Origin: a bacterium
Lineage (GTDB): Bacteria; UBP18; UBA7526
Assembly (NCBI GenBank): GCA_030619985.1
Contig: JAUXAI010000044.1
Location: 1 to 10,231 of the forward strand
Reading direction: 5' to 3'
DNA length: 10,231 bases
Each line of letters opens with the position of its first letter. Position 1 is the stretch's first letter. The translations under genes and the position numbers were made by a program. The notes under the pieces are model-generated. The model searched no databases. It was not told the DNA's origin and saw nothing but the letters and a program-made list of their open reading frames with translations. Of this stretch, positions 1 to 10,231 are shown in pieces.

Positions 1-28
1 AAAAAAGAGATTAATCCCGGGGGATGAA

Positions 29-898
29 ATGTTAGTCTATTTTGATGGAGAACTGATCCCTAAGGAGGAGGCAAGGGTTTCGGTCTATGACCATGGGCTC
101 TTATATGGAGATGGGGTATTTGAAGGAATAAGGTCATATGATGGCAAGGTCTTCAGATTGGAACAGCATCTGGATAGACTCTATGCTTCAGCTCAGGCTA
201 TTGCCCTAAAGATTCCTTTATCAAAGGAAGAGATGGGGGAAGCGGTCTTGAAGACCTTGAGGGCCAATAAGTTAAGGGATGCCTATATTAGATTGGTGGT
301 TACCAGGGGGATAGGGGACTTAGGTCTCGATCCCAGAAAATGTCCCAGACCAACAGTCTTCATCATCACTGATAAGATAAAACTCTATCCCGAGGAGTTT
401 TATAAGGATGGATTGGAGGTAATAGTTACCAAAACAAAGAGAAATATTAGGGAGGCCCTGAATCCAGGGATAAAGTCCTTAAATTATCTGAATAATATCC
501 TGGCTAGGATTGAGGTGAATAGAGCAAATATGGCAGAGGGAATTATGACCAATATTGAGGGCTATGTGGCAGAGGCCACTGCGGATAACGTCTTTATTGT
601 TAGAAATAAAGAGGTGATTACTCCCCCTACAGAGATGGGGGCCTTAAGAGGAATCACCAGGGATGCCGTTCTAGAAATAGCAGAAACTTTGGGAATTAAG
701 GCACATGAGTTGCCCTTCACCGTTAAGGAATTGTATGAGGCGGATGAGTGCTTTCTGACCGGAACAGCAGCAGAGGTCATCTCAGTAGTCAAGGTAGATG
801 ACAAGAATATCGGGGATGGAAAGCCAGGGGAGATTACTCTTAAACTGAGAGAAGGGTTCAAGAAACTCACTCAGAGAGAGGGAACACCTATTTATTGA
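29..898 (+). CDS. ilvE: Branched-chain amino acid aminotransferase (fold-type IV PLP enzyme)
   Basis: This 289-residue protein is a class IV PLP-dependent aminotransferase. The family exchanges amino groups between Leu, Ile or Val and 2-oxoglutarate in the cytoplasm, the last step of branched-chain amino acid synthesis. Visible marks are the N-terminal YGDGVFEGIRSYDG segment (26-39), typical of branched-chain enzymes; the Schiff-base lysine Lys149 in KSLNYLNNILA; the class IV signature EATADNVF (182-189); GALRGITRDAV (204-214); and GTAAEV (245-250), which helps hold the cofactor phosphate. Length is normal for the family. The ATG at 29 follows a G-rich stretch (18-22), and the ATG at 24 hits a stop after three codons. 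The TRGIGDLGLDP segment (92-102) also occurs in related D-amino acid aminotransferases and aminodeoxychorismate lyases, so substrate is less certain than fold. It is separated from mcsA by 164 nt and is probably a separate unit. Confidence 0.88.
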   Translation: MLVYFDGELIPKEEARVSVYDHGLLYGDGVFEGIRSYDGKVFRLEQHLDRLYASAQAIALKIPLSKEEMGEAVLKTLRANKLRDAYIRLVVTRGIGDLGLDPRKCPRPTVFIITDKIKLYPEEFYKDGLEVIVTKTKRNIREALNPGIKSLNYLNNILARIEVNRANMAEGIMTNIEGYVAEATADNVFIVRNKEVITPPTEMGALRGITRDAVLEIAETLGIKAHELPFTVKELYEADECFLTGTAAEVISVVKVDDKNIGDGKPGEITLKLREGFKKLTQREGTPIY

Positions 899-904
899 AG
901 TAAC

Positions 905-1031
905 CAGTAACTAGTGAACAGTAAAAGAGCAGAAAATTCAATGCAAAATGTAAAATTAACAATTAGCAGTGAAAAATGAAGATAACAAGACTTTTTATTC
1001 GTTTTAATTGGTTACTGTTCACTGGTTACTG
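905..1031. repeat. 20-bp inverted repeat made of 7-mer tandem words, between ilvE and mcsA
   Basis: Arms at 905-924 and 1012-1031 are reverse complements at 19 of 20 positions. The one mismatch (T912 against G1024) would be a G-U wobble in RNA, so a transcript could form 20 continuous pairs around an 87-nt A/T-rich loop. Each arm is built of degenerate 7-mers: AGTAACC-like units run from 899 to 926, starting directly after the ilvE stop codon, and the complementary GGTTACT-like units run from 1010 to 1030. No coding sequence is seen in the loop. It is not a classical terminator, because no U-run follows the right arm. It could be a small non-autonomous repeat element or a transcript-stabilising structure. 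Confidence 0.75.
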
Positions 1032-1035
1032 TGAG

Positions 1036-1050
1036 CTATCCGAGCGATAG
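1036..1050 (+). promoter_or_regulatory. Small hairpin directly before the mcsA ribosome-binding site
   Basis: CTATC (1036-1040) and GATAG (1046-1050) form a perfect 5-bp stem with a CGAGC loop. It sits immediately upstream of the strong Shine-Dalgarno GAGGAGG (1052-1058), which lies 4 nt before the mcsA ATG. The hairpin leaves the ribosome-binding site free, so it may keep the site open or may be chance. A 5-bp stem is weak evidence. Confidence 0.3.
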
Positions 1051-1062
1051 TGAGGAGGAAAA

Positions 1063-1614
1063 ATGCTGTGTGAGAGATGTGGGAAGGAAGAGGCCACAGT
1101 ACCAGTAATAAAGATCGTGGGTGGTGAGTTCACGGTCATGCACCTCTGTGATGAATGTGCCGAGGAGGTCACTGGTGAGATAAAGAAGGAGATGGAATCC
1201 CTCTTTCCCTCTTTCCCCGATCTCTTTTCGAAGATATTTTCTGATTTCCCTTCCTTTCATACCGAGTTCTTTGCCCCCTTTGAAGAGAAGATCAAGCCCC
1301 CGGAAGTAGAGGAAATCAAATGTCCCAGATGCGGTCTTTCCTACAGCGACTTCAGGAAAACATTCCAGCTGGGATGTAGTCAGTGCTACGAGACGTTCAA
1401 GGAACAGTTGGAGCCCATGCTCAGAAGGATACACGGAAGTATCATTCATAAGGGAAAGGTTCCCTCCAAGGTTCCAGTTAAAGTGAAGATCCCTAAGGAT
1501 GAGATCGAAGAGATGAAGAAAAAGCTTCAGGAAGCAGTTAAGAGAGAAGAGTATGAAGAGGCAGCCCATTTGAGAGACGAGATAAGAGTTTTAGAGAAGA
1601 GGAAGAAGAAATGA
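1063..1614 (+). CDS. mcsA: McsA: zinc-finger and UVR-motif activator of protein arginine kinase
   Basis: In Firmicutes McsA binds and activates the arginine kinase McsB and helps load ClpC. This 183-residue protein has the full family architecture: four CxxC pairs (Cys3/Cys6, Cys29/Cys32, Cys87/Cys90, Cys105/Cys108), expected to form two zinc-binding units; a Phe-rich spacer at about 48-76; and a C-terminal UVR helical hairpin at about 147-180 with the typical EEYEEAAHLRDEIRVLEKR core. The ATG at 1063 has an excellent Shine-Dalgarno (1052-1058). The stop codon overlaps the mcsB start (ATGA at 1611-1614), so the two are very likely translated together. The usual Firmicutes partner ctsR is not upstream. 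A long antisense reading frame across this gene is a shadow. The identification rests on the Cys pattern, the UVR motif and the mcsB neighbour. Confidence 0.92.
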   Translation: MLCERCGKEEATVPVIKIVGGEFTVMHLCDECAEEVTGEIKKEMESLFPSFPDLFSKIFSDFPSFHTEFFAPFEEKIKPPEVEEIKCPRCGLSYSDFRKTFQLGCSQCYETFKEQLEPMLRRIHGSIIHKGKVPSKVPVKVKIPKDEIEEMKKKLQEAVKREEYEEAAHLRDEIRVLEKRKKK

Positions 1615-2666
1615 GATTCAAGGAGATGGCTTCTAAGATTAGTCAGTGGCTTGAGGAGTCAAAGGAGATCGTCATTTCAAGCCGCGTGAGACTTGCCCGG
1701 AACTTGGCTGACTTCTCCTTTACCCATTGGGCGAAGAAAGAAGATTTAGCCAAGATTGTAGAAAGGGTTTCGAAAGAAGCTAAGACAAGTAGTTATCTGA
1801 AGAATGCTCTTATAATTAATCTTAAAGAACTAGATGATATCGATCGCCAGTTCTTAATGGAGCGTCATCTAATCTCAAGGGAGCATGCTCAAGGCAAGGG
1901 AAAGGAGAGGGCGGTCATTATCGGAGATAAAGAGATTATCTCCATCATGGTGAATGAGGAGGACCATCTCAGGATTCAGGTGACAGAGTCGGGACTGAAC
2001 CTCATTGAAGCCTGGAGATTAGCGACTAAGATAGATAATGAACTGGAGAAGGGATTGAATTATGCCTTTTCCGAGAAGTATGGATACCTAACTGCCTGTC
2101 CCACAAATACTGGGACGGGCCTGAGGGCCTCGGTCATGATTCATCTTCCCGCCTTAGTTATGTCCCGACAGATTAACAAGGTCTTGGATGCCGTCTCCCG
2201 AGCAAATATGGCGGTGAGGGGCATCTATGGAGAGGGAACCCAGGCCCAGGGGGATCTCTTTCAGGTTTCAAATGAGATAAGTCTGGGTGAGAGTGAAGAG
2301 GAGATTGTGGGGCACGTGGAGAAGGCTGCCCGGGAGATTATGGAGTATGAAAAGGGAGCCAGAAAGAGGCTTCTGACTCAGTTGGAGGAAAGAGTGAGAG
2401 ATAGCGTATCCCGGGCCTATGGAACGCTCTGTAGCACCTATACCATTAGTTCTGCTGAGACCCTGACCCTTCTTTCTAAGCTGCGCCTGGGGACGAGCAT
2501 CGGCCTGGCTAAGGATATAGATATCCCTACTTTAAATGAACTCTTGATCCTCACTCGTCCTGCCCATCTTCAAGAGATAGCAGGCAAGAAGTTAAGCGCT
2601 CCAGAGAGGGATGTGAAGAGAGCAGCATTTATAAGAAGTAAATTGGGAATAAAAAGCAGTGAGTAA
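1611..2666 (+). CDS. mcsB: McsB: protein arginine kinase (phosphagen kinase family)
   Basis: McsB transfers phosphate from ATP to arginine side chains of proteins, marking them for ClpC-ClpP. The 351-residue length matches the family. Seen in order: the N-terminal ISSRVRLARN motif (22-31); the acidic NEEDH motif (115-119); the active-site cysteine Cys163 in CPTNTGTG; the RGIYGEGTQAQGDLFQVSN segment (203-221) with Glu208, expected to be catalytic; and RDVKRA (333-338), matching the RDxxRA motif described in bacterial McsB as an allosteric phosphoarginine-binding site. That last motif and the lack of the animal-type N-terminal domain separate it from creatine and arginine kinases that act on free metabolites. 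It overlaps mcsA by 4 nt. A second ATG at 1626 has its AGGAG directly abutting it with no spacer, so 1611 is preferred. Confidence 0.95.
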   Translation: MRFKEMASKISQWLEESKEIVISSRVRLARNLADFSFTHWAKKEDLAKIVERVSKEAKTSSYLKNALIINLKELDDIDRQFLMERHLISREHAQGKGKERAVIIGDKEIISIMVNEEDHLRIQVTESGLNLIEAWRLATKIDNELEKGLNYAFSEKYGYLTACPTNTGTGLRASVMIHLPALVMSRQINKVLDAVSRANMAVRGIYGEGTQAQGDLFQVSNEISLGESEEEIVGHVEKAAREIMEYEKGARKRLLTQLEERVRDSVSRAYGTLCSTYTISSAETLTLLSKLRLGTSIGLAKDIDIPTLNELLILTRPAHLQEIAGKKLSAPERDVKRAAFIRSKLGIKSSE

Positions 2667-2674
2667 TAATCAGC

Positions 2675-2771
2675 TAATATCAGTTAACAGCGGTTAATAA
2701 CAGTTACTAACGGTTGCTTTTTAATGAGGTAACCGATTTTAACCGATGTTAACAGTTTTCAACCGATATTA
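2675..2771. repeat. 10-bp phased repeat array forming an imperfect hairpin upstream of clpC
   Basis: Most of the 139-nt mcsB-clpC gap is made of two arms. The left arm (2675-2717) carries CAGTTAAC/CGGTTAAT-like units starting at 2681, 2691, 2701 and 2711. The right arm (2729-2771) carries AACCGAT-like units starting at 2731, 2741, 2751 and 2761. Both are spaced exactly 10 bp, about one helical turn. Aligned without gaps, the left arm matches the reverse complement of the right at about 31 of 43 positions, with an 11-nt loop. The pattern does not match the CtsR operator (direct GGTCAAA heptads) or the HrcA CIRCE element. It could be a multi-site operator, an RNA structure or a repeat element. 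The clpC Shine-Dalgarno GAGGAGG (2794-2800) lies just outside it. Confidence 0.7.
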
Positions 2772-2805
2772 ACCTCATATTTGTTAAGCAAAAGAGGAGG
2801 TTGAA

Positions 2806-5379
2806 ATGGATGGAAGGTTTACTGAGAGAGCAAAGAAAATCATAAATCTTGCCCGTCAAGAGGCGGGAAGGCTGGGTCACGATTATGTGGGAACAGAGCA
2901 CCTCTTGTTGGGATTGGTGAGATTGGGAGAGGGAGTAGCGGTTGAGATACTCAAGGGCTTCGGTGTCGATCTAGAGTCCGTAAAATCGGGACTGGAGAAG
3001 ATGGTTCCCAAAGGTGCTGCGACCCTAAAGATGGGAGAAATCCCCTTCACCCCTCGAGCGAAGAAAGTCCTGGAGAGAATTGTAGTTGAAGAAGCGAGAA
3101 AGTTAGGACATAACTATGTGGGGACAGAGCATATCCTCTTAGCCCTGATTAGTGAGGGGGAAGGAATTGCGGCCCAGGTCTTATTGAATCTAAAGGTTGA
3201 CCTGGAGAAGGCGAGGAAGGCGATACTGGAGATTCTTAAGCCAGAGATTCCTCCCGAGGCCCCTGAGATTCCAGGGGTTGCTCCAGAAGAAGAGATGCCC
3301 AAGGGATTTCCTCCGATATTTGGAATGCCGGGAATGAAAAAGGAGGCCAAGGCGGTCTCTAAGACTCCGGCCCTGGACGCCTATGGAAGGGATATGACCC
3401 AGTTGGCGAGGGAAGGGAAACTCGATCCGGTCATTGGAAGGGAGGATGAGATAGAAAGGATCATCCAGATCCTGGCCAGAAGAACGAAGAATAATGCAGC
3501 ATTGATCGGTGAGCCGGGAGTGGGAAAGACAGCCATCGCAGAAGGGGTAGCCCAGAAAATTGTCTCTGGAAAAGTGCCCGATCTATTAGCTAATAAGAGG
3601 ATGATTGCTCTTGACTTAGCAGGAATGGTCGCCGGGACAAAGTATCGGGGTGAGTTCGAGGCAAGATTGAAGAAGGTGGTGGAGGAGATCAGGAGGAGCG
3701 GAAACATCCTCATCTTCATCGATGAGCTCCATACTTTAGCCGGGGCTGGTGCCGCAGAGGGAGCCATCGATGCCTCAAGTATCCTAAAGCCTAGTTTAGC
3801 CCGGGGGGAACTGCAGTGCATAGGAGCCACAACCTTAGGTGAATATAGAAAGTATATTGAGAAGGACGGAGCCCTAGAGAGGAGATTTCAGCAGGTCTTC
3901 ATTGATGAGCCATCTGTGGAAGAGACAGAGAAGATCCTGGAGGGATTGAAGGGCAGGTATGAGGAACATCATAAGGTAAAGATAACCCCAGAAGCCCTGA
4001 AAGCTGCCGCAGAATTATCCGAGAGATACATCTCTGATAGGAACCTCCCTGATAAGGCCATCGATCTGATCGATGAGGCCAGCGCCCGGGCGCGCTTAGC
4101 AGAGGCCACCATGCCTCCCCATCTCAAGGATATGGAGAAGGAGGTAGAGGAGGCAGAGAAGAGAAAGGTAGAGGCAGTAAGAGCCCAGGAGTTTGAGAAG
4201 GCAGCAGAATATAGAGACAAGGTCAAAGAACTGAAGGAGAGGTTGAAGAAGACCAGGGAGGAGTGGGAGAGGTCAAAGAAGGCCTTGAAACCAGAGGTCT
4301 CGAGTGATGATATCGCCTATATCGTCTCCAAGTGGACCGGAATACCGGTCATTAAGCTAACTCAGGATGAGCAGGAGAGGCTGACCAGGATGGAGGAGGA
4401 GCTGGCCAAGAGGGTAGTTGGTCAAGAGGAAGCTCTCAAAGCGGTCTCTGATGCCGTGAGAAGGGCTCGGGTAGGAATAAAGGAGCCCAAGAGGCCCATC
4501 GGCTCCTTCATCTTCGCTGGTCCTACCGGGGTAGGGAAGACAGAGCTTGCCCGCACTCTTGCTGAGTCCCTCTTTGGCGATGAGAAGGCCATGGTGCGCT
4601 TCGATATGAGTGAGTTCGCAGAGAGGTTTACGGTCTCCAGACTGGTTGGGGCTCCCCCAGGATATGTGGGATATGAGGAGGCGGGGCAGCTCACAGAGCC
4701 GGTGAGGAGAAGGCCCTATACTGTAATTCTCTTAGACGAGATTGAGAAGGCTCATCCGGACGTCTTTAATATCTTGTTGCAGGTTATGGATGAAGGGAGA
4801 TTGACGGACAGCCTGGGCAGAACGGCAAACTTTAAGAATGCAGTCATCATCATGACTAGTAACGTGGGGACTGAGGATATCATGAGAAGGGCCCCGGGCT
4901 TTGAGGCAGTAAAAGAAATCTCCCATGAAAAGATGTGCAAGAACGTCCTCTCCAAAATGAGAAATACCTTCCGCCCAGAGTTTCTGAATAGACTGGATGG
5001 GATCATCGTCTTCCATCCCTTGGACAAGGATAATCTAACCAAAATCTCGGAACTCATGCTTGAGAGACTACGCAAGAGGTTGGATAAGAAGGGAATAAAA
5101 TTGGAACTCTCTGATAAGGCCAGGGAATTCCTGGTCACCAAGGAGTACGATGCCATCAAGGGGACAAAGGATTATACCTATGCCTTTGGTGCCCGACCAT
5201 TGGAGAGGAATATTGAGAGGTTCATTGAGGACCCCCTCTCAAGTGAACTCTTAAAAGGGAGGTTCAAGGAGGGCTCTACCATCCTGGTCGATCTTGAGGA
5301 GAATAGGCTGACCTTCAAGGAAAAGGGAAAGCCCCGTCCGACCGCCCCGACCGCTAAAAGCGGACAGGAAAAAGTGTAG
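2806..5379 (+). CDS. clpC: ClpC: Hsp100 AAA+ unfoldase of the Clp protease
   Basis: This 857-residue cytoplasmic unfoldase recognises substrates and threads them into ClpP. The N-domain is a double repeat with matching YVGTEHLLLGL (27-37) and YVGTEHILLAL (104-114); Glu31 and Glu108 correspond to the glutamates that bind phosphoarginine in Bacillus ClpC. A Pro-rich linker (about 146-180) follows. The first ATPase domain has Walker A GEPGVGKT (235-242) and Walker B ILIFIDE (301-307). A UVR-containing middle domain lies at about 440-485. The second ATPase domain has Walker A GPTGVGKT (572-579), Walker B VILLDE (640-645), arginine-finger NRLD (728-731) and GARPLER (795-801). The ClpP-docking loop reads PGF (697-699) instead of the usual [VLI]GF. 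A Pro/Thr/Ala/Lys tail (about 840-857) is encoded by repeat-like DNA. The start is set by GAGGAGG 5 nt before the ATG. The middle domain marks it as ClpC rather than ClpA or ClpB. Confidence 0.96.
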   Translation: MDGRFTERAKKIINLARQEAGRLGHDYVGTEHLLLGLVRLGEGVAVEILKGFGVDLESVKSGLEKMVPKGAATLKMGEIPFTPRAKKVLERIVVEEARKLGHNYVGTEHILLALISEGEGIAAQVLLNLKVDLEKARKAILEILKPEIPPEAPEIPGVAPEEEMPKGFPPIFGMPGMKKEAKAVSKTPALDAYGRDMTQLAREGKLDPVIGREDEIERIIQILARRTKNNAALIGEPGVGKTAIAEGVAQKIVSGKVPDLLANKRMIALDLAGMVAGTKYRGEFEARLKKVVEEIRRSGNILIFIDELHTLAGAGAAEGAIDASSILKPSLARGELQCIGATTLGEYRKYIEKDGALERRFQQVFIDEPSVEETEKILEGLKGRYEEHHKVKITPEALKAAAELSERYISDRNLPDKAIDLIDEASARARLAEATMPPHLKDMEKEVEEAEKRKVEAVRAQEFEKAAEYRDKVKELKERLKKTREEWERSKKALKPEVSSDDIAYIVSKWTGIPVIKLTQDEQERLTRMEEELAKRVVGQEEALKAVSDAVRRARVGIKEPKRPIGSFIFAGPTGVGKTELARTLAESLFGDEKAMVRFDMSEFAERFTVSRLVGAPPGYVGYEEAGQLTEPVRRRPYTVILLDEIEKAHPDVFNILLQVMDEGRLTDSLGRTANFKNAVIIMTSNVGTEDIMRRAPGFEAVKEISHEKMCKNVLSKMRNTFRPEFLNRLDGIIVFHPLDKDNLTKISELMLERLRKRLDKKGIKLELSDKAREFLVTKEYDAIKGTKDYTYAFGARPLERNIERFIEDPLSSELLKGRFKEGSTILVDLEENRLTFKEKGKPRPTAPTAKSGQEKV
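5338..5363. repeat. GC-rich tandem 9-mer and hairpin inside the clpC 3' end
   Basis: CCGACCGC occurs at 5338-5345 and 5347-5354 (period 9), encoding the PTAPTA of the ClpC tail. The second copy runs into a perfect 5-bp hairpin, CCGCT (5351-5355) and AGCGG (5359-5363) with an AAA loop. The stretch is clearly richer in C than the rest of clpC. The hairpin ends 20 nt before the bamA GTG. It could be a repeat element captured into the reading frame, a site of ribosome or polymerase pausing, or chance. Confidence 0.45.
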
Positions 5380-5383
5380 CCAG

Positions 5384-7621
5384 GTGAAAAAGGGCCTCAT
5401 CCTTGTCATTTTTAGTCTGACGATTATTACTGGCGGAGCAAGGGCCCAAGGGGAGATTATTAAAGCCATTGAGGTTGAGGGGAATAAGAACATTACCCGG
5501 GAAAGAATCTTAAAGGCAGCAGAAACCAAGGTGGGGGATGAGTACTCTCTCTCTGCCTTGAGAGAAGACCTGAAGAGAATCTATAGACTGGGCTTTTTCT
5601 CTGATGTCAAGATCGATACCTCCCCCTTTCAAGAGGGGATTAAAGTAAAGTTCATTGTTGAGGAGAGATTCTTAGTTGGAAAGATAATTTTTAAGGGAAA
5701 TAAGAAGATCAGAAAAGGGACTCTCTTAGAAGAGATTGGGCTGAAGGTTGACGAGGTCTATAGCGAGAAGAAGATAGAGGAGGCCAAAGAGGAGATCCTC
5801 TCTCTATACAAAGAGAAGAGGTATTATCAGGCAGAGGTTCAGGAAGAGGTAAAGATAGATAAGGAAGAGGGGAAAGTAAATGTTACCTTTAATATCAAAG
5901 AGGGGCCGAAACTGAAGGTAGAGAGGATCGAGATCCTGGGAAATAGGGTCTTCTCTGACAGGAAGATCAGAAGGGTGATGAAGACTAAGAAGAGAAAGTT
6001 TGATGAGGAGGTCTTTAAAGAAGACTTAGAAAGGATAATTACTCTCTATAAGACAAGAGGATATCTTTTAGCAAAGATCGCAGATCATAGGATTAGTTAT
6101 GAAGAAGAAAAGATATTCATCACTATCTTAATCGAAGAAGGTCCCCAGATAAAGATGGGGAGCCTGACCATCTCGGGCAATGAATTATTCACCGATGAGG
6201 AGATCAAGAAGGAGGTGGTCCTGAAGGAGGGGATGGTCTATAATGAACTACAGTTCGATAGAGACCTCTTCCAAGTCCACGCCCTATATTACAATAAGGG
6301 CTACGCCTTTGCCCGCGTAGAGCCCACTAAGAAGATCGATGAAAAGGAAGAGAAGATAGACATTAGCCTGGACGTCACGGAAGGTTCCCTGGCCTATATC
6401 GGGAAGATCGAGATCACGGGGAATGAAAAGACCAAGGATTATGTGATAAGGAGGGAGCTGGTCATCGGAGAAGGAGAGGTCTTCAACTATAAGAAGATAC
6501 TAAGAAGCCAGGAAAAGTTATATAACTTAGGATACTTCAAGAGATTGGACATCGAGGGCGAAGAAGGAGTGAAAATCGATACCTATCCGGGAAAGGAACC
6601 GGATATCATAAACTTGGTCTTCGATATCAAGGAGAAGAAGACCGGAACCCTGAACTTAGGGATGGGATATTCCAGTGTGGATGGAGCGGTTGGCCAGGTC
6701 TCGGTCTCTGAGATCAACCTCTTTGGCCGGGGGTATCAGGCCTCTGCCACTGTGGAGTTTGGAGGAAAGAGGCAGAACTATAATCTGCGCTTCACCAACC
6801 CCTGGCTCTTCAATACCCCCACCTACTTCTCTACTGGGGTTTGGCATAAGACGAGGGTCAGGGATAGCTATGATATTGAGAGGAGAGGGGGTGACATCAC
6901 CTTCGGCCATCCCATAACCGACTTCACCAAGTGGTACCTCAACTATAAGGGGGAGAGGGTAAGGGTCTATAAAGTAGAGAGTGATGCCCCCCTTGACATT
7001 ACCCGAGAGGAAGGGAAGAAATTTCTCTCTTCTCTCACTCCCAGCCTGGTACGGGATACCAGGAACTACATCTTCGATCCCAGCAAGGGCTCTTATAACT
7101 CTTTATCTATAGAGTGTGCTGGTGGCCCCCTAGGAGGGGACGTTGACTTCTTAAAGTATAGATTGGATTCCCGGTGGTACTTCAAGACCTTCTGGAAGTT
7201 CGTTCTTGCCCTGCGCCTCAGGGCGGGATATGTTGAGGAGTTCGATGACTCCACATATGTTCCTATCTTTGAGAGGTTCTATGTTGGGGGGGCGGATACC
7301 GTGAGGGGCTGGAAGTATGCCGATATCGGTCCCAAGGCGGCCAATGGCGATCCCATTGGAGGGGTGAAGATGATGGTGGCCAACCTGGAGTGGCGCTTCC
7401 CAATATATCACAGATTAAAAGGGGTCTTATTTGTTGATGGCGGGGATACCTGGGCAAGGGGAGTAAACCCAGAGTTTGAAGATATTGAGGGAGGATATGG
7501 AGCGGGAATAAGGTTCCATACTCCTATGGGGCTTCTACGCTTCGATTATGGAAGGCCCATTGATCCTCCGGCTGGTGTTTCCCATAGCCAGTTCTATTTT
7601 AGTATTGGGCAATCCTTTTAA
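5384..7621 (+). CDS. bamA: BamA: outer-membrane protein assembly factor (Omp85 family)
   Basis: BamA sits in the outer membrane and folds and inserts beta-barrel proteins. The 745-residue protein begins with a signal peptide (Lys2-Lys3, hydrophobic 4-17, likely cleavage after ARA at 19-21). Five POTRA domains follow at about 24-95, 96-174, 175-253, 254-333 and 336-416; four of the last five strands end in a recognisable IEEG/IKEG/VTEG-like turn, and each domain opens with a GN motif (33-34, 105-106, 186-187, 265-266, 346-347). The rest (about 420-745) is the beta-barrel, with VRGW (640-643) as the conserved VRG[FYW] loop-6 motif and a C-terminal Phe in FYFSIGQSF. Five POTRAs favour BamA over two-partner TpsB or one-POTRA TamA-like relatives. 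The GTG start is chosen because the signal peptide begins there; it lies 4 nt after the clpC stop with no good Shine-Dalgarno nearby, suggesting translational coupling. Confidence 0.95.
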   Translation: MKKGLILVIFSLTIITGGARAQGEIIKAIEVEGNKNITRERILKAAETKVGDEYSLSALREDLKRIYRLGFFSDVKIDTSPFQEGIKVKFIVEERFLVGKIIFKGNKKIRKGTLLEEIGLKVDEVYSEKKIEEAKEEILSLYKEKRYYQAEVQEEVKIDKEEGKVNVTFNIKEGPKLKVERIEILGNRVFSDRKIRRVMKTKKRKFDEEVFKEDLERIITLYKTRGYLLAKIADHRISYEEEKIFITILIEEGPQIKMGSLTISGNELFTDEEIKKEVVLKEGMVYNELQFDRDLFQVHALYYNKGYAFARVEPTKKIDEKEEKIDISLDVTEGSLAYIGKIEITGNEKTKDYVIRRELVIGEGEVFNYKKILRSQEKLYNLGYFKRLDIEGEEGVKIDTYPGKEPDIINLVFDIKEKKTGTLNLGMGYSSVDGAVGQVSVSEINLFGRGYQASATVEFGGKRQNYNLRFTNPWLFNTPTYFSTGVWHKTRVRDSYDIERRGGDITFGHPITDFTKWYLNYKGERVRVYKVESDAPLDITREEGKKFLSSLTPSLVRDTRNYIFDPSKGSYNSLSIECAGGPLGGDVDFLKYRLDSRWYFKTFWKFVLALRLRAGYVEEFDDSTYVPIFERFYVGGADTVRGWKYADIGPKAANGDPIGGVKMMVANLEWRFPIYHRLKGVLFVDGGDTWARGVNPEFEDIEGGYGAGIRFHTPMGLLRFDYGRPIDPPAGVSHSQFYFSIGQSF

Positions 7622-7622
7622 A

Positions 7623-7684
7623 ACACGAAACTACACGAACTGTAAAGTGAAAACGGGAGCAATTAAGACACGAATATACACGAA
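7623..7684. repeat. ACACGAA repeat pairs downstream of bamA
   Basis: ACACGAA occurs four times: 7623-7629, 7633-7639, 7668-7674 and 7678-7684. Within each pair the spacing is exactly 10 bp, and the two pairs are 45 bp apart. No inverted partner was found nearby. Together with the next repeat this accounts for most of the 147-nt bamA-skp gap, where no gene is visible. Function unknown. Confidence 0.7.
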
Positions 7685-7706
7685 TTAATAGTATAATAGA
7701 CATGAG

Positions 7707-7754
7707 ATCTGTGATCTATGTGTCAATCTGTGAACAATCTGTGATAATCTGTGT
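7707..7754. repeat. ATCTGTG repeat array upstream of skp/ompH
   Basis: ATCTGTG occurs at 7707, 7726, 7737 and 7747, with a degenerate ATCTATGTG copy at 7714. The last three start 11 and 10 bp apart, again close to one helical turn. The array ends 3 nt before the skp Shine-Dalgarno (AAGGAG, 7757-7762). It differs in sequence from the ACACGAA repeats next to it. It could be a binding-site array or a simple repeat of no function. Confidence 0.7.
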
Positions 7755-7768
7755 AAAAGGAGAGTGAG

Positions 7769-8287
7769 ATGATGAAAAGAGTAGGTTGTATTGTTGGGAT
7801 GTTATTCTTTCTCTTGGTTTCTCAGGGAAAGGCGGAGGATTTGGCTAAGGTGGGCTATGTGGATATGGACCGGGTGTTCGATGAGTATACTGAGACCCAG
7901 AAAGCGAGCCAGGAGCTCAATAAGGAAATTAACGCGCGCCGGAAGGAGATTACTAAATTAGAGAATGAGATTACTTCTTTAAGAGAAGAACTCAATACCC
8001 AGGAGGCCCTCCTCTCTAAAGAAGAGAGATTAAAGAGGGCCCAGGAGATCAATCAGAAGATCCTCGACCTTCAGAAGTATGTAAGGGATGTGGAGATGGA
8101 TCTGGCAAGGAAAGAGGAAGCCATGACCAAGAAGCTAATTACTGCAATATTGAGTGTGATTAAAAAGGTTGGAGAAAAGGAAGGATATACCCTCATCTTG
8201 AGGAAGGATAGCATCCTCTATGGAGGGGAGGGTATGGATCTCACAGATGAGGTGGTAAAAGTATTGAATAAAGGGAAACGCAGATAG
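7769..8287 (+). CDS. skp: Skp/OmpH family periplasmic chaperone
   Basis: Skp-family proteins form trimers in the periplasm that hold unfolded outer-membrane proteins on their way to the BAM complex. The 172-residue protein has a signal peptide (basic Lys3-Arg4, hydrophobic core about 5-18, likely cleavage after GKA at 20-22). The mature start KVGYVDMDRVFDEY (27-40) is the typical first strand of the family. A long Lys/Glu-rich coiled-coil region (about 42-122) gives the tentacle helices. The end (about 123-168) returns to the body domain with GYTLILRKDSILYGG (139-153), the usual second-strand motif. AAGGAG at 7757-7762 serves either of two adjacent ATG codons (7769 or 7772). Its place between bamA and lpxD is the widespread order in diderm bacteria and supports the call. 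Confidence 0.92.
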   Translation: MMKRVGCIVGMLFFLLVSQGKAEDLAKVGYVDMDRVFDEYTETQKASQELNKEINARRKEITKLENEITSLREELNTQEALLSKEERLKRAQEINQKILDLQKYVRDVEMDLARKEEAMTKKLITAILSVIKKVGEKEGYTLILRKDSILYGGEGMDLTDEVVKVLNKGKRR

Positions 8288-8305
8288 ATTGGGGAAAAGT
8301 ATAAA

Positions 8306-8402
8306 CCCCGCACCTTCGTTTAATTCATTGGTTTTACAATTTAGTAGGTGTGGGGGTGTAGCTGAGAATATGATTTATCGTGAATAATGGGAAGGTGCGG
8401 GG
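8306..8402. repeat. 12-bp perfect inverted repeat enclosing the skp-lpxD gap
   Basis: CCCCGCACCTTC (8306-8317) is the exact reverse complement of GAAGGTGCGGGG (8391-8402). Inside, ATTCA (8323-8327) and TGAAT (8381-8385) continue the pairing after a symmetric 5-by-5 internal loop. The right arm covers the likely lpxD Shine-Dalgarno and the first base of its GTG start. In RNA this structure could hide the lpxD start. It is not a terminator, as no U-run follows. No gene is seen in the 114-nt gap. Confidence 0.75.
8390..8395 (+). promoter_or_regulatory. Ribosome-binding site deciding the lpxD start
   Basis: GGAAGG lies 6 nt before GTG at 8402. The in-frame ATG at 8387 has only A/T-rich sequence before it and would place this purine run inside the gene. 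Family proteins normally begin with a short lysine-led segment just before the [10 protein letters not shown]-like helix, which fits the GTG. Confidence 0.55.
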
Positions 8403-9439
8403 TGAAGAAGAGTCTAAAAGAAATAGCGGAACAAATTGGAGGAGAGATAGTAGGGGACGCGAGTATTGAGATAGAGGGCGTAGCGGGAATAGAGGAGGCA
8501 AGGAAAGGAGAAATCACCTTCATTAGCGATATAAAGCACCTTCCCCTTTTAGAAACTACTCAGGCCTCAGCGGTCATCGTCTCCCGCGAAGTCAAGGAAG
8601 CGAAAGTTCCCCTTATCCAGGTGGAGAATCCCTATCTCGCCTTTAGTCAAGTGATGAGAATTTTAATTCCTCACGAAAAACCCAGTGAAGGAATTCATTC
8701 CTCGGCCATCGTTTCAAAAGGGGTGGATCTGGGGAAGAAGGTCTCCGTCGGTGCCCACTCTGTGATAGAAGAAAAAGCGAGGATTGGAAATAATACCATA
8801 ATCTATCCCCTAGTCTATATAGGGAAAGGAAGCAGGGTAGGGAAGGACTGTATCATCTATCCCCAGGTGATGATTAAGGAGGAGGTAGAGATCGGTAATA
8901 GAGTAATTATCCATTCCGGGGCAGTCATCGGCTCTGATGGCTTTGGTTATATCCCACATGAGGGAAAGCAGCATAAGGTTCCCCAGATTGGGAAGGTGGT
9001 CATTGAGGATGATGTTGAGATCGGAGCCAATGTCACCATCGATCGAGCAACCTTAGGAAAAACCTGGATAAAGAGCGGGGTAAAGATAGATAACTTAGTC
9101 CAGATCGCCCATAATGTAGTCATTGGGGAGGACTCGGTCATCGTTGCCCAGGTGGGGATTTCAGGAAGCACCGAGATTGGTAAAGGAGTTACCTTGGCGG
9201 GTCAGGCAGGGGTGGTGGGCCATATAAAGATCGGGGATGGAGCGATAGTGGGCGGTCAGGCCGGAGTACTGAAGTCTGTCCCTTCCAACACCATCGTTTC
9301 TGGTTATCCAGCCAGGCCCCATACTCAGGCAAAGAAGATTGAGGCCAGTATCTTGAGGCTACCAGAATTACATAAATTGGTTCGAAAATTGAAGAAAAGG
9401 ATTGAGGAATTGGAGAAGAAGAAAGAAGAGAGTGACTAA
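8402..9439 (+). CDS. lpxD: LpxD: UDP-3-O-(3-hydroxyacyl)glucosamine N-acyltransferase
   Basis: LpxD adds the second 3-hydroxyacyl chain, from acyl-ACP, to the 2-amino group of UDP-3-O-acylglucosamine in lipid A synthesis, using the product of LpxC. From the GTG start the protein has 345 residues, the usual size. The N-terminal domain (about 1-95), which binds the uridine part in known structures, has [14 protein letters not shown] and [11 protein letters not shown]. It is followed by a left-handed beta-helix of hexapeptide repeats (about 98-300) with many IG-x-x-[AVT]-x-[IV] turns. Motifs include GSDGFGY (177-183) and NLVQIAHNV with the catalytic base His237. The C-terminal tail (about 310-345) is a Lys/Glu-rich helix. 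An in-frame ATG at 8387 would add five residues but lacks a ribosome-binding site. The inverted repeat over the start is odd and may control translation. Confidence 0.94.
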
Positions 9440-9450
9440 TAACCAAACAT

Positions 9451-9652
9451 CAAGATACAAGATACAAACAATAACCAATAACCCAATAACCAATGAACCA
9501 AACAATTTGTCTGTACCAGATCTGCCGAAGCCAGAAAAGTTTGGGCAATGCTTAACTATTTATACTCTCTCCAATGCCAGCGACGCGCATTGGGTATTGA
9601 AATCTGAATATTTGAATTTGTTTGATGATTGTATCTTGCTTATTGTATCTTA
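9451..9652. repeat. Tandem 7-8-mers with inverted partner in the lpxD-lpxC gap
   Basis: The 228-nt gap holds no convincing gene. Its left part has CAAGATACAA twice with period 7 (9451-9460, 9458-9467), followed by four CAATAAC-like 7-8-mers (9469-9498). Its right part has the complementary TTGTATCTT words at 9629-9637 and 9643-9651. The layout, short words at both ends in opposite orientation around a unique core (about 9510-9600), resembles a small non-autonomous element, but no target-site duplication is evident. LpxD and LpxC genes are often packed closely, so this gap is long for an operon. Confidence 0.65.
9571..9593. repeat. Hairpin in the core of the lpxD-lpxC gap
   Basis: CCAATGC (9571-9577) and GCATTGG (9587-9593) form a perfect 7-bp stem with a 9-nt loop. 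A second CAATGC at 9546-9551 could compete for the same right arm. No U-run follows directly, so a Rho-independent terminator is not supported. It may be an RNA structure in the lpxC leader or the core of a repeat element. Confidence 0.45.
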
Positions 9653-9667
9653 AGATTGAGGAGTTTT

Positions 9668-10231
9668 ATGGAATATCAGAAGACGATTAAGAAAGAGGTT
9701 AGTTATTCTGGGATCGGTCTACATACTGGGAAGAAGGTAAAGATTGCCTTCAAACCTGCGCCCGTAGATGGTGGAGTAAGATTTGTTCGGGTGGACCTTG
9801 AGGGCAAGCCCCAGATGATAGCAGAAATTACCAAGGTAATTAAAGCCTCTCGAGAAACAAGTCTCGGAGAAGGTGAACTAAAAATACAGAGTGTAGAACA
9901 TATCTTGGCGGCCTTGACCGGTTTGGGCATTGATAATTTAATTATTGAGATAAATTCGGATGAAGTACCGGCAGCGGATGGAAGCGCCCTCCCCTTTATG
10001 CAAGCCCTAAAAGAAGCAGGGATCGCTGAGCAGAAAAAAGAAAGAGAATACTTAAAGTTAAAAGAGCCTGTTTCCTATGTGAAGGAAGACGTCTATCTCA
10101 TTGCTCTACCAAATGAAGGGCTCAAGATAAGTTATACCATTGACTTTGACCATCCGGTCCTGAGGACCCAGTTTGCTTCCTTTGTCATAAATGAGGATAC
10201 CTTCGTAAAAGAAATCGCTCCCGCAAGGACC
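9668..10231 (+). CDS. lpxC: LpxC: UDP-3-O-acyl-N-acetylglucosamine deacetylase (3' end cut off)
   Basis: LpxC is the zinc-dependent deacetylase that performs the committed step of lipid A synthesis. The frame is open from the ATG at 9668 to the window end (188 residues). GAGGAG (9658-9663) lies 4 nt before the start. Seen: SGIGLHTGKKV (14-24), the opening motif; SVEHILAAL (75-83) with Glu77 and His78, matching the catalytic glutamate and first zinc ligand; GIDNLIIEI (87-95); PAADGSALPF (101-110); TIDFDHPVL starting the second domain; and IAPART at the very end, normally followed by Phe. The other zinc ligands (His and Asp near the C-terminus) lie beyond the window. The missing part is about 90-115 residues for a simple LpxC. 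A fusion to FabZ, as in Bacteroidetes and some other phyla, cannot be excluded. Confidence 0.94.
   Translation, partial: MEYQKTIKKEVSYSGIGLHTGKKVKIAFKPAPVDGGVRFVRVDLEGKPQMIAEITKVIKASRETSLGEGELKIQSVEHILAALTGLGIDNLIIEINSDEVPAADGSALPFMQALKEAGIAEQKKEREYLKLKEPVSYVKEDVYLIALPNEGLKISYTIDFDHPVLRTQFASFVINEDTFVKEIAPART

Follow-up and report, generated by a model that had tools for sequence, protein, structure and literature searches.

A McsA-McsB-ClpC locus joined to bamA in the diderm phylum UBP18, and its probable place in a single-gate Clp system

Protein arginine phosphorylation has been studied mainly in Gram-positive bacteria, and a locus in which its genes stand directly before genes for outer membrane assembly raises the question of what such an arrangement means. 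We address it on a stretch of 10,231 nucleotides (nt), hereafter the window, which is a whole contig (C57; GenBank JAUXAI010000044.1) of a bacterium of the phylum UBP18 whose genome comprises 1.25 Mb in 91 contigs and is 84% complete. The original prediction for this window held that mcsA, mcsB and clpC run straight into bamA, skp, lpxD and lpxC on the same strand, and proposed that phosphoarginine-directed proteolysis may here be co-expressed with envelope assembly, perhaps to remove precursors of envelope proteins that fail to be exported.

The reading that we favor, and regard as likely though short of firm, is that the locus belongs to a working McsA/McsB/ClpC/ClpP phosphoarginine proteolysis module of a diderm, moved before the bam/lpx genes by rearrangement, possibly sharing a transcript with them, and with ClpC as probably the only Hsp100 gate to ClpP. 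Every component is encoded, in most cases with its key residues, and the gene order is established; activity and substrates are inferred. McsA would activate McsB, McsB would phosphorylate arginines of damaged or regulated cytosolic proteins, and the ClpC N-domain would recognize the mark and pass the protein to a ClpP encoded elsewhere. The window holds eight genes, all on the + strand and with family matches, and all intact except lpxC:

29 to 898, + strand: ilvE-type class IV aminotransferase (PF01063, E = 1e-61; NF006185, E = 1.5e-135)
899 to 1062, + strand: ilvE-mcsA spacer containing a long hairpin (arms at 905-924 and 1012-1031; fold z = -5.06)
1063 to 1614, + strand: mcsA, protein-arginine kinase activator with Cys pairs and UVR motif (NF053706, E = 1.2e-45; PDB 8wtb chain B, E = 9e-33)
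1611 to 2666, + strand: mcsB, protein-arginine kinase carrying the catalytic motifs plus RDxxR at the C-terminal end (PF00217, E = 4e-70; NF002194, E = 1.5e-128; PDB 6fh1, E = 1e-85)
2667 to 2805, + strand: mcsB-clpC spacer, hairpin-forming (fold z = -4.17)
2806 to 5379, + strand: clpC, Hsp100 unfoldase (two Clp_N, AAA, AAA_lid_9, AAA_2, ClpB_D2-small)
5384 to 7621, + strand: bamA, outer membrane protein assembly factor (TIGR03303, E = 6.6e-182, exceeding its cut-off)
7769 to 8287, + strand: skp/ompH, periplasmic chaperone (PF03938, E = 2e-32)
8387 to 9439, + strand: lpxD, lipid A acyltransferase (TIGR01853, E = 2e-112, exceeding its cut-off)
about 9668 to 10231, + strand: lpxC, lipid A deacetylase, cut by the contig end (PF03331, E = 2.5e-62)

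The reading frames of mcsA and mcsB share 4 nt and clpC is separated from bamA by 4 nt, and 139 nt lie between mcsB and clpC, so the claim that the genes run straight on holds at the clpC-bamA junction and fails one gene earlier.

The kinase itself is well delineated. McsB scores over the cut-off of NF002194 (PRK01059.1-4), aligns over 339 residues with the solved McsB of PDB 6fh1, and combines a guanidino-kinase domain, catalytic glutamates, the cysteine and a C-terminal regulatory domain with similarity to solved McsB over its full length. Glutamates E116 and E117 of the NEED motif, the active-site C163, E208 of the YGEG motif and several C-terminal residues are invariant across six homologues, and the C-terminal RDVKRA stretch agrees with solved McsB; the NEED and YGEG glutamates, the cysteine and the RDxxR site are what we take, from McsB structures, to be the functional residues of the enzyme. 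The adjoining McsA carries its Cys pairs and UVR motif and matches the solved activator, with a score (155.5 bits) under the NCBIfam equivalog cut-off of 210 bits for NF053706. ClpC has two Clp_N repeats, an M-domain with UVR motif and two AAA domains, and the GTEH glutamates of both N-domain repeats, which form the phosphoarginine site, are kept in every homologue compared. BamA shows five POTRA stretches together with a complete Omp85 domain, and as a query gives a single strong match in its own genome. The complete McsB catalytic motifs, ClpC phosphoarginine-site glutamates and intact BamA that the original prediction had read from the letters are all borne out by these comparisons. Its premise that Firmicutes lack BamA and lipid A needs narrowing: Negativicutes and Halanaerobiales have both BamA and lipopolysaccharide (PMC5007114). 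LpxD, LpxC and OmpH/Skp exceed their Pfam cut-offs, and lpxC is longer in loci L008 and L097 than in the window copy. Elsewhere in the same genome (L130:2056-4938, G000:C43) a 961-residue protein has a weak Omp85-like C-terminal match; its size is similar (961 to 995 residues) in four of the UBP18 genomes.

Our sample of the phylum consists of six UBP18 genomes, all of which encode mcsB (one relative has 89% McsB identity), and clpC and bamA are joined in every one of them (window, L008, L009, L010, L011 and L030). The L009 contig begins just 5′ of mcsB, and in G001 mcsA-mcsB lie on one contig and clpC-bamA on another. A second small phylum, P2, represented by five genomes, has mcsA-mcsB-clpC-bamA-skp-lpxC on all four long contigs (L014, L094, L095, L096), with clpC and bamA about 2 nt apart or overlapping and, in L096, skp lying some 7 kb away from bamA; the contig of the fifth genome stops inside clpC. 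The adjacency of clpC and bamA is not due to chance: all UBP18 genomes share it, and a second phylum shows it again. Upstream of ilvE, the L010 locus (positions 1-8500) carries secA, a VanZ-like open reading frame (ORF), lnt, prfB, lysS, lolE and lolD, named from their translations, with lysS and lolD partly masked.

The system is neither rare among diderms nor, in other phyla, tied to bamA. The gene mcsB is present in 274 of 285 Omnitrophota genomes and 141 of 149 Planctomycetota genomes, which at the level of gene presence removes the rarity that the original prediction had implied. For Omnitrophota we fetched 60 regions in addition to L012 (L012, L032-L091). In 59 of the 60, clpC lies directly 3′ of mcsB, the contig of the other (L083) stopping 199 nt past mcsB; L034 and L066 stop at or just past clpC, so that 57 regions and L012 give 58 loci reaching past it. 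Downstream of clpC, these 58 loci show an unnamed ORF in some cases, mlaE-mlaF-mlaD in most, radA in many, and yacL, ispD, ispF and cysS; bamA was found in none of these loci, beside mcsB or clpC or elsewhere. Upstream, lolE-lolD precede the block in 58 of the 60 regions, and the full order reads lolE-lolD-ilvE-mcsA-mcsB-clpC-mlaE-mlaF-mlaD-radA-yacL-ispD-ispF-cysS, in which the ilvE-mcsA order is common to UBP18 and Omnitrophota. Weak lpxD-like matches downstream were discounted, since they probably represent cysE or some other hexapeptide protein. Two Omnitrophota genomes were checked for the place of bamA (L028, L029), and in both bamA-skp-lpxD-lpxC lie 3′ of a dnaB-like gene; what looked like clpC before bamA in L029 proved to be ClpX (33 bits). 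Among 20 Planctomycetota regions, 15 gave a match to mcsA, 8 had clpC immediately downstream, 4 had radA behind clpC and none had bamA, the mcsA, clpC and bamA counts being lower bounds since the search models derive from other phyla. Two of the Planctomycetota regions (L144:1-18001 and L149:1-18001) have an mlaF-like ABC ATPase about 1.2 kb upstream of mcsB, and mcsA and clpC were not found in them. The gene-order comparison around diderm mcsB thus divides the original prediction: the adjacency that it expected in related genomes is kept throughout UBP18 and in P2, and was found in none of the Omnitrophota or Planctomycetota regions, which counts in part as the refutation that the prediction itself had named.

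These orders give the change a direction. The B. subtilis record reads ctsR-mcsA-mcsB-clpC-radA-disA-yacL-ispD-ispF-gltX-cysE-cysS, and C. acetobutylicum has ctsR-mcsA-mcsB-clpC-sms-disA (PMC3828012). In UBP18, mlaE-mlaF-mlaD-radA-yacL-ispD-ispF-gltX-cysS stay together on a different contig (L128, and in part L136 and L137). Because radA-yacL-ispD-ispF follow clpC in Omnitrophota, some Planctomycetota and Bacillus, and the block is kept elsewhere in UBP18, the clpC-bamA order is derived from an older clpC-(mla)-radA through a break immediately past clpC. In the history that we propose, mcsA-mcsB-clpC would be an old block, normally followed by radA-yacL-ispD-ispF (with mlaEFD between in Omnitrophota), and a rearrangement in UBP18 would have cut it just after clpC and joined on bamA-skp-lpxD-lpxC. 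The clpC-bamA junction is not a general diderm arrangement, and the envelope-gene neighborhood of the block (lolED, mlaEFD) is wider than bamA alone. A tree of McsA, McsB and ClpC with three Firmicutes outgroups has long branches, and the support values of the re-rooted tree were not relied on. A single origin of the junction through a UBP18+P2 clade is disfavored on it (approximately unbiased test, p = 0.0125; p-SH = 0.056), a weak result given the long branches; the junction may therefore have originated twice, which we treat as a weak indication.

Where the marked proteins would go depends on the Clp complement of UBP18. A search with the Hsp100 C-terminal domain (PF10431) returned one protein over the cut-off in each of the six genomes, namely ClpC; no ClpB, ClpX or HslU passed it, and none of the six has a ClpX over its own cut-off. 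A match below the cut-off (G000:C75) was rejected, its translation reading as CoaBC. From the completeness values, and assuming independent loss, the chance that the same gene is absent from all six metagenome-assembled genomes is about 4e-5. Since clpX and the other Hsp100 genes were not found, ClpC is probably the sole Hsp100 partner of ClpP in UBP18, and the McsB mark would probably be a main route of substrate delivery. The clpP gene is present in G000 (L124:3053-3670, G000:C8), G002, G003 and G005 (L124-L127), arranged as tig-clpP-lon in G003 and G002 and as clpP-lon in G000 and G005; in none of the four does clpX separate clpP from lon. We found no second ClpP in UBP18; another ClpP-family match (G000:C53) was rejected, its translation reading as an SppA-type signal peptide peptidase. 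A low-molecular-weight phosphatase gene lies between sua5 and rpiB (L129), with the P-loop CTGNSCRS in place of the YwlE-type CTGNTCRS. YwlE-type arginine phosphatases have a Thr in this loop (PMC8001253), and the Ser of the UBP18 protein retains the hydroxyl. CtsR was found in none of 13 genomes by a search that also missed the B. subtilis control, as the McsB search had done, so that this negative is not fully validated; with the same caveat, the ctsR gene expected for a CtsR-controlled class III heat shock operon was not found.

Several observations weigh against the reading that we favor. The ClpC docking loop, which in Omnitrophota and P2 carries [IL]GF, is APGF in all five UBP18 ClpC proteins compared, so that its tripeptide PGF departs from the ClpP-docking consensus [LIV]-G-[FL]; and in all four genomes with clpP the peptidase has a 9-residue insertion and Ser-His-Asn in place of the Ser-His-Asp triad, the Asp being kept in the Omnitrophota and P2 ClpP examined. 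On both counts, ClpC-ClpP coupling may be altered or weak. Full-length ClpP was not found in G001 and G004, both incomplete genomes, the phosphatase carries Ser at the position of Thr11 in YwlE and PtpB, and the 8 to 171 nt between clpC and bamA in the other UBP18 genomes would leave room for a separate bamA promoter there.

The same changes could mean that UBP18 ClpC acts mainly as a ClpP-independent disaggregase in place of a missing ClpB, a role that would fit the PGF tripeptide, the Ser-His-Asn triad and the lack of ClpB, ClpX and HslU over the PF10431 cut-off; yet ClpP is retained with its Ser and His and the Gly-Phe of the docking loop is still there, and we consider this role unlikely. 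For the junction, transcription together with bamA is plausible given the gap of only 4 nt in the window, and a common transcript may serve quality-control proteolysis and envelope assembly. The ilvE-mcsA spacer holds a 20-nt inverted repeat whose arms are 95% complementary, and fold z-scores of about -2.7 (L008 4889-5028) and -2.8 (L011 2053-2179) accompany those of the two window spacers listed above; the fold of the mcsB-clpC spacer recurs among close relatives with its letters not conserved, and in L010 this spacer is only about 10 nt. The bamA-skp spacer of the window and two spacers of L008 fold no better than shuffles, a scan for consensus promoters and terminators gave results at chance level, and no Rfam or tRNA matches were found in the window.

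To a neutral juxtaposition, in which the housekeeping blocks of small genomes are reshuffled and bamA comes to lie after clpC, the two being linked neither in function nor in regulation, we give about an even chance. This explanation bears on the junction alone and does not conflict with a McsB/ClpC system that works. The presence of prfB, lysS and ilvE in the cluster, the absence of the junction from the Omnitrophota and Planctomycetota regions, the chance-level promoter scan and clpC-bamA spacers ranging from 4 to 171 nt in UBP18 all speak for it, whereas retention of the junction in every UBP18 genome and in P2, and the flanking of the block by lolED and mlaEFD in Omnitrophota, do not. Neutral rearrangement accounts for the junction at least as well as the original idea that McsB and ClpC clear export-failed envelope precursors and are for that reason co-expressed with Bam and Lpx. 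That coupling could draw on the short junction, on the envelope modules (Lol, Mla or Bam/Lpx) that flank the block in UBP18 and Omnitrophota and on a junction that may have arisen twice, but the neighbor of clpC varies between phyla and B. subtilis has the same enzymes in a neighborhood without envelope genes; it seems decidedly improbable. Very improbable, in our estimate, is the compound claim that the UBP18 Clp system was remodeled to leave one gate (a changed-loop ClpC and a Ser-His-Asn ClpP, with ClpX, ClpB and HslU gone), Hsp100-driven ClpP proteolysis depending on McsB marking or direct recognition by ClpC, and that the junction also formed independently in two phyla by selection for transcription of envelope assembly together with this gate.

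What remains of the original interpretation, then, is a diderm whose McsA/McsB/ClpC set is complete and stands 4 nt before bamA, with the junction kept, in an arrangement that is not general among diderms and with a system that is not rare in them. The novelty lies in the Clp machine of UBP18 and in the junction as a derived state. The near-universal presence of mcsB in Omnitrophota and Planctomycetota, together with a gene order shared with Bacillus, suggests that the system is older and wider than Gram-positives. With one Hsp100 and one unusual ClpP, UBP18 would offer a minimal version for testing how the phosphoarginine mark is linked to ClpP and, should clpC and bamA be co-transcribed, protein quality control would be wired to outer membrane assembly at the transcript level.

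Among known systems, Listeria ClpP1 has, like UBP18 ClpP, Asn in place of the catalytic Asp, and its triad becomes active only in combination with ClpP2 (PMC9765437); Listeria also has that ClpP2, while the UBP18 ClpP is the only one found. In a search of open-licence papers we found no literature on McsB with an outer membrane cluster. Chlamydia trachomatis (PMC10128030) is likewise a diderm with McsA/B orthologues, whose ClpC with ClpP1P2 degrades phosphoarginine casein in vitro; it differs in having mcsAB apart from clpC, ClpX and two ClpPs, and a bam junction is not described there. The ctsR-mcsA-mcsB-clpC operon and ClpCP of B. subtilis are alike in the order mcsA-mcsB-clpC, in full-length homology of McsB, McsA and ClpC and in key residues, and the downstream radA-yacL-ispD-ispF-gltX-cysS is recognizable in UBP18 at a separate locus. 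Against it, UBP18 has ilvE and lolED upstream, bamA-skp-lpxD-lpxC downstream and a diderm envelope, with ClpX not found and CtsR not found by the search that missed its control. The Omnitrophota cluster matches in its left half, from lolE to clpC, and departs from UBP18 in its right half of mlaEFD-radA-yacL-ispD, with bamA after dnaB elsewhere (L028, L029), the [IL]GF loop, ClpX in G006 and a Ser-His-Asp ClpP in G006 and G007.

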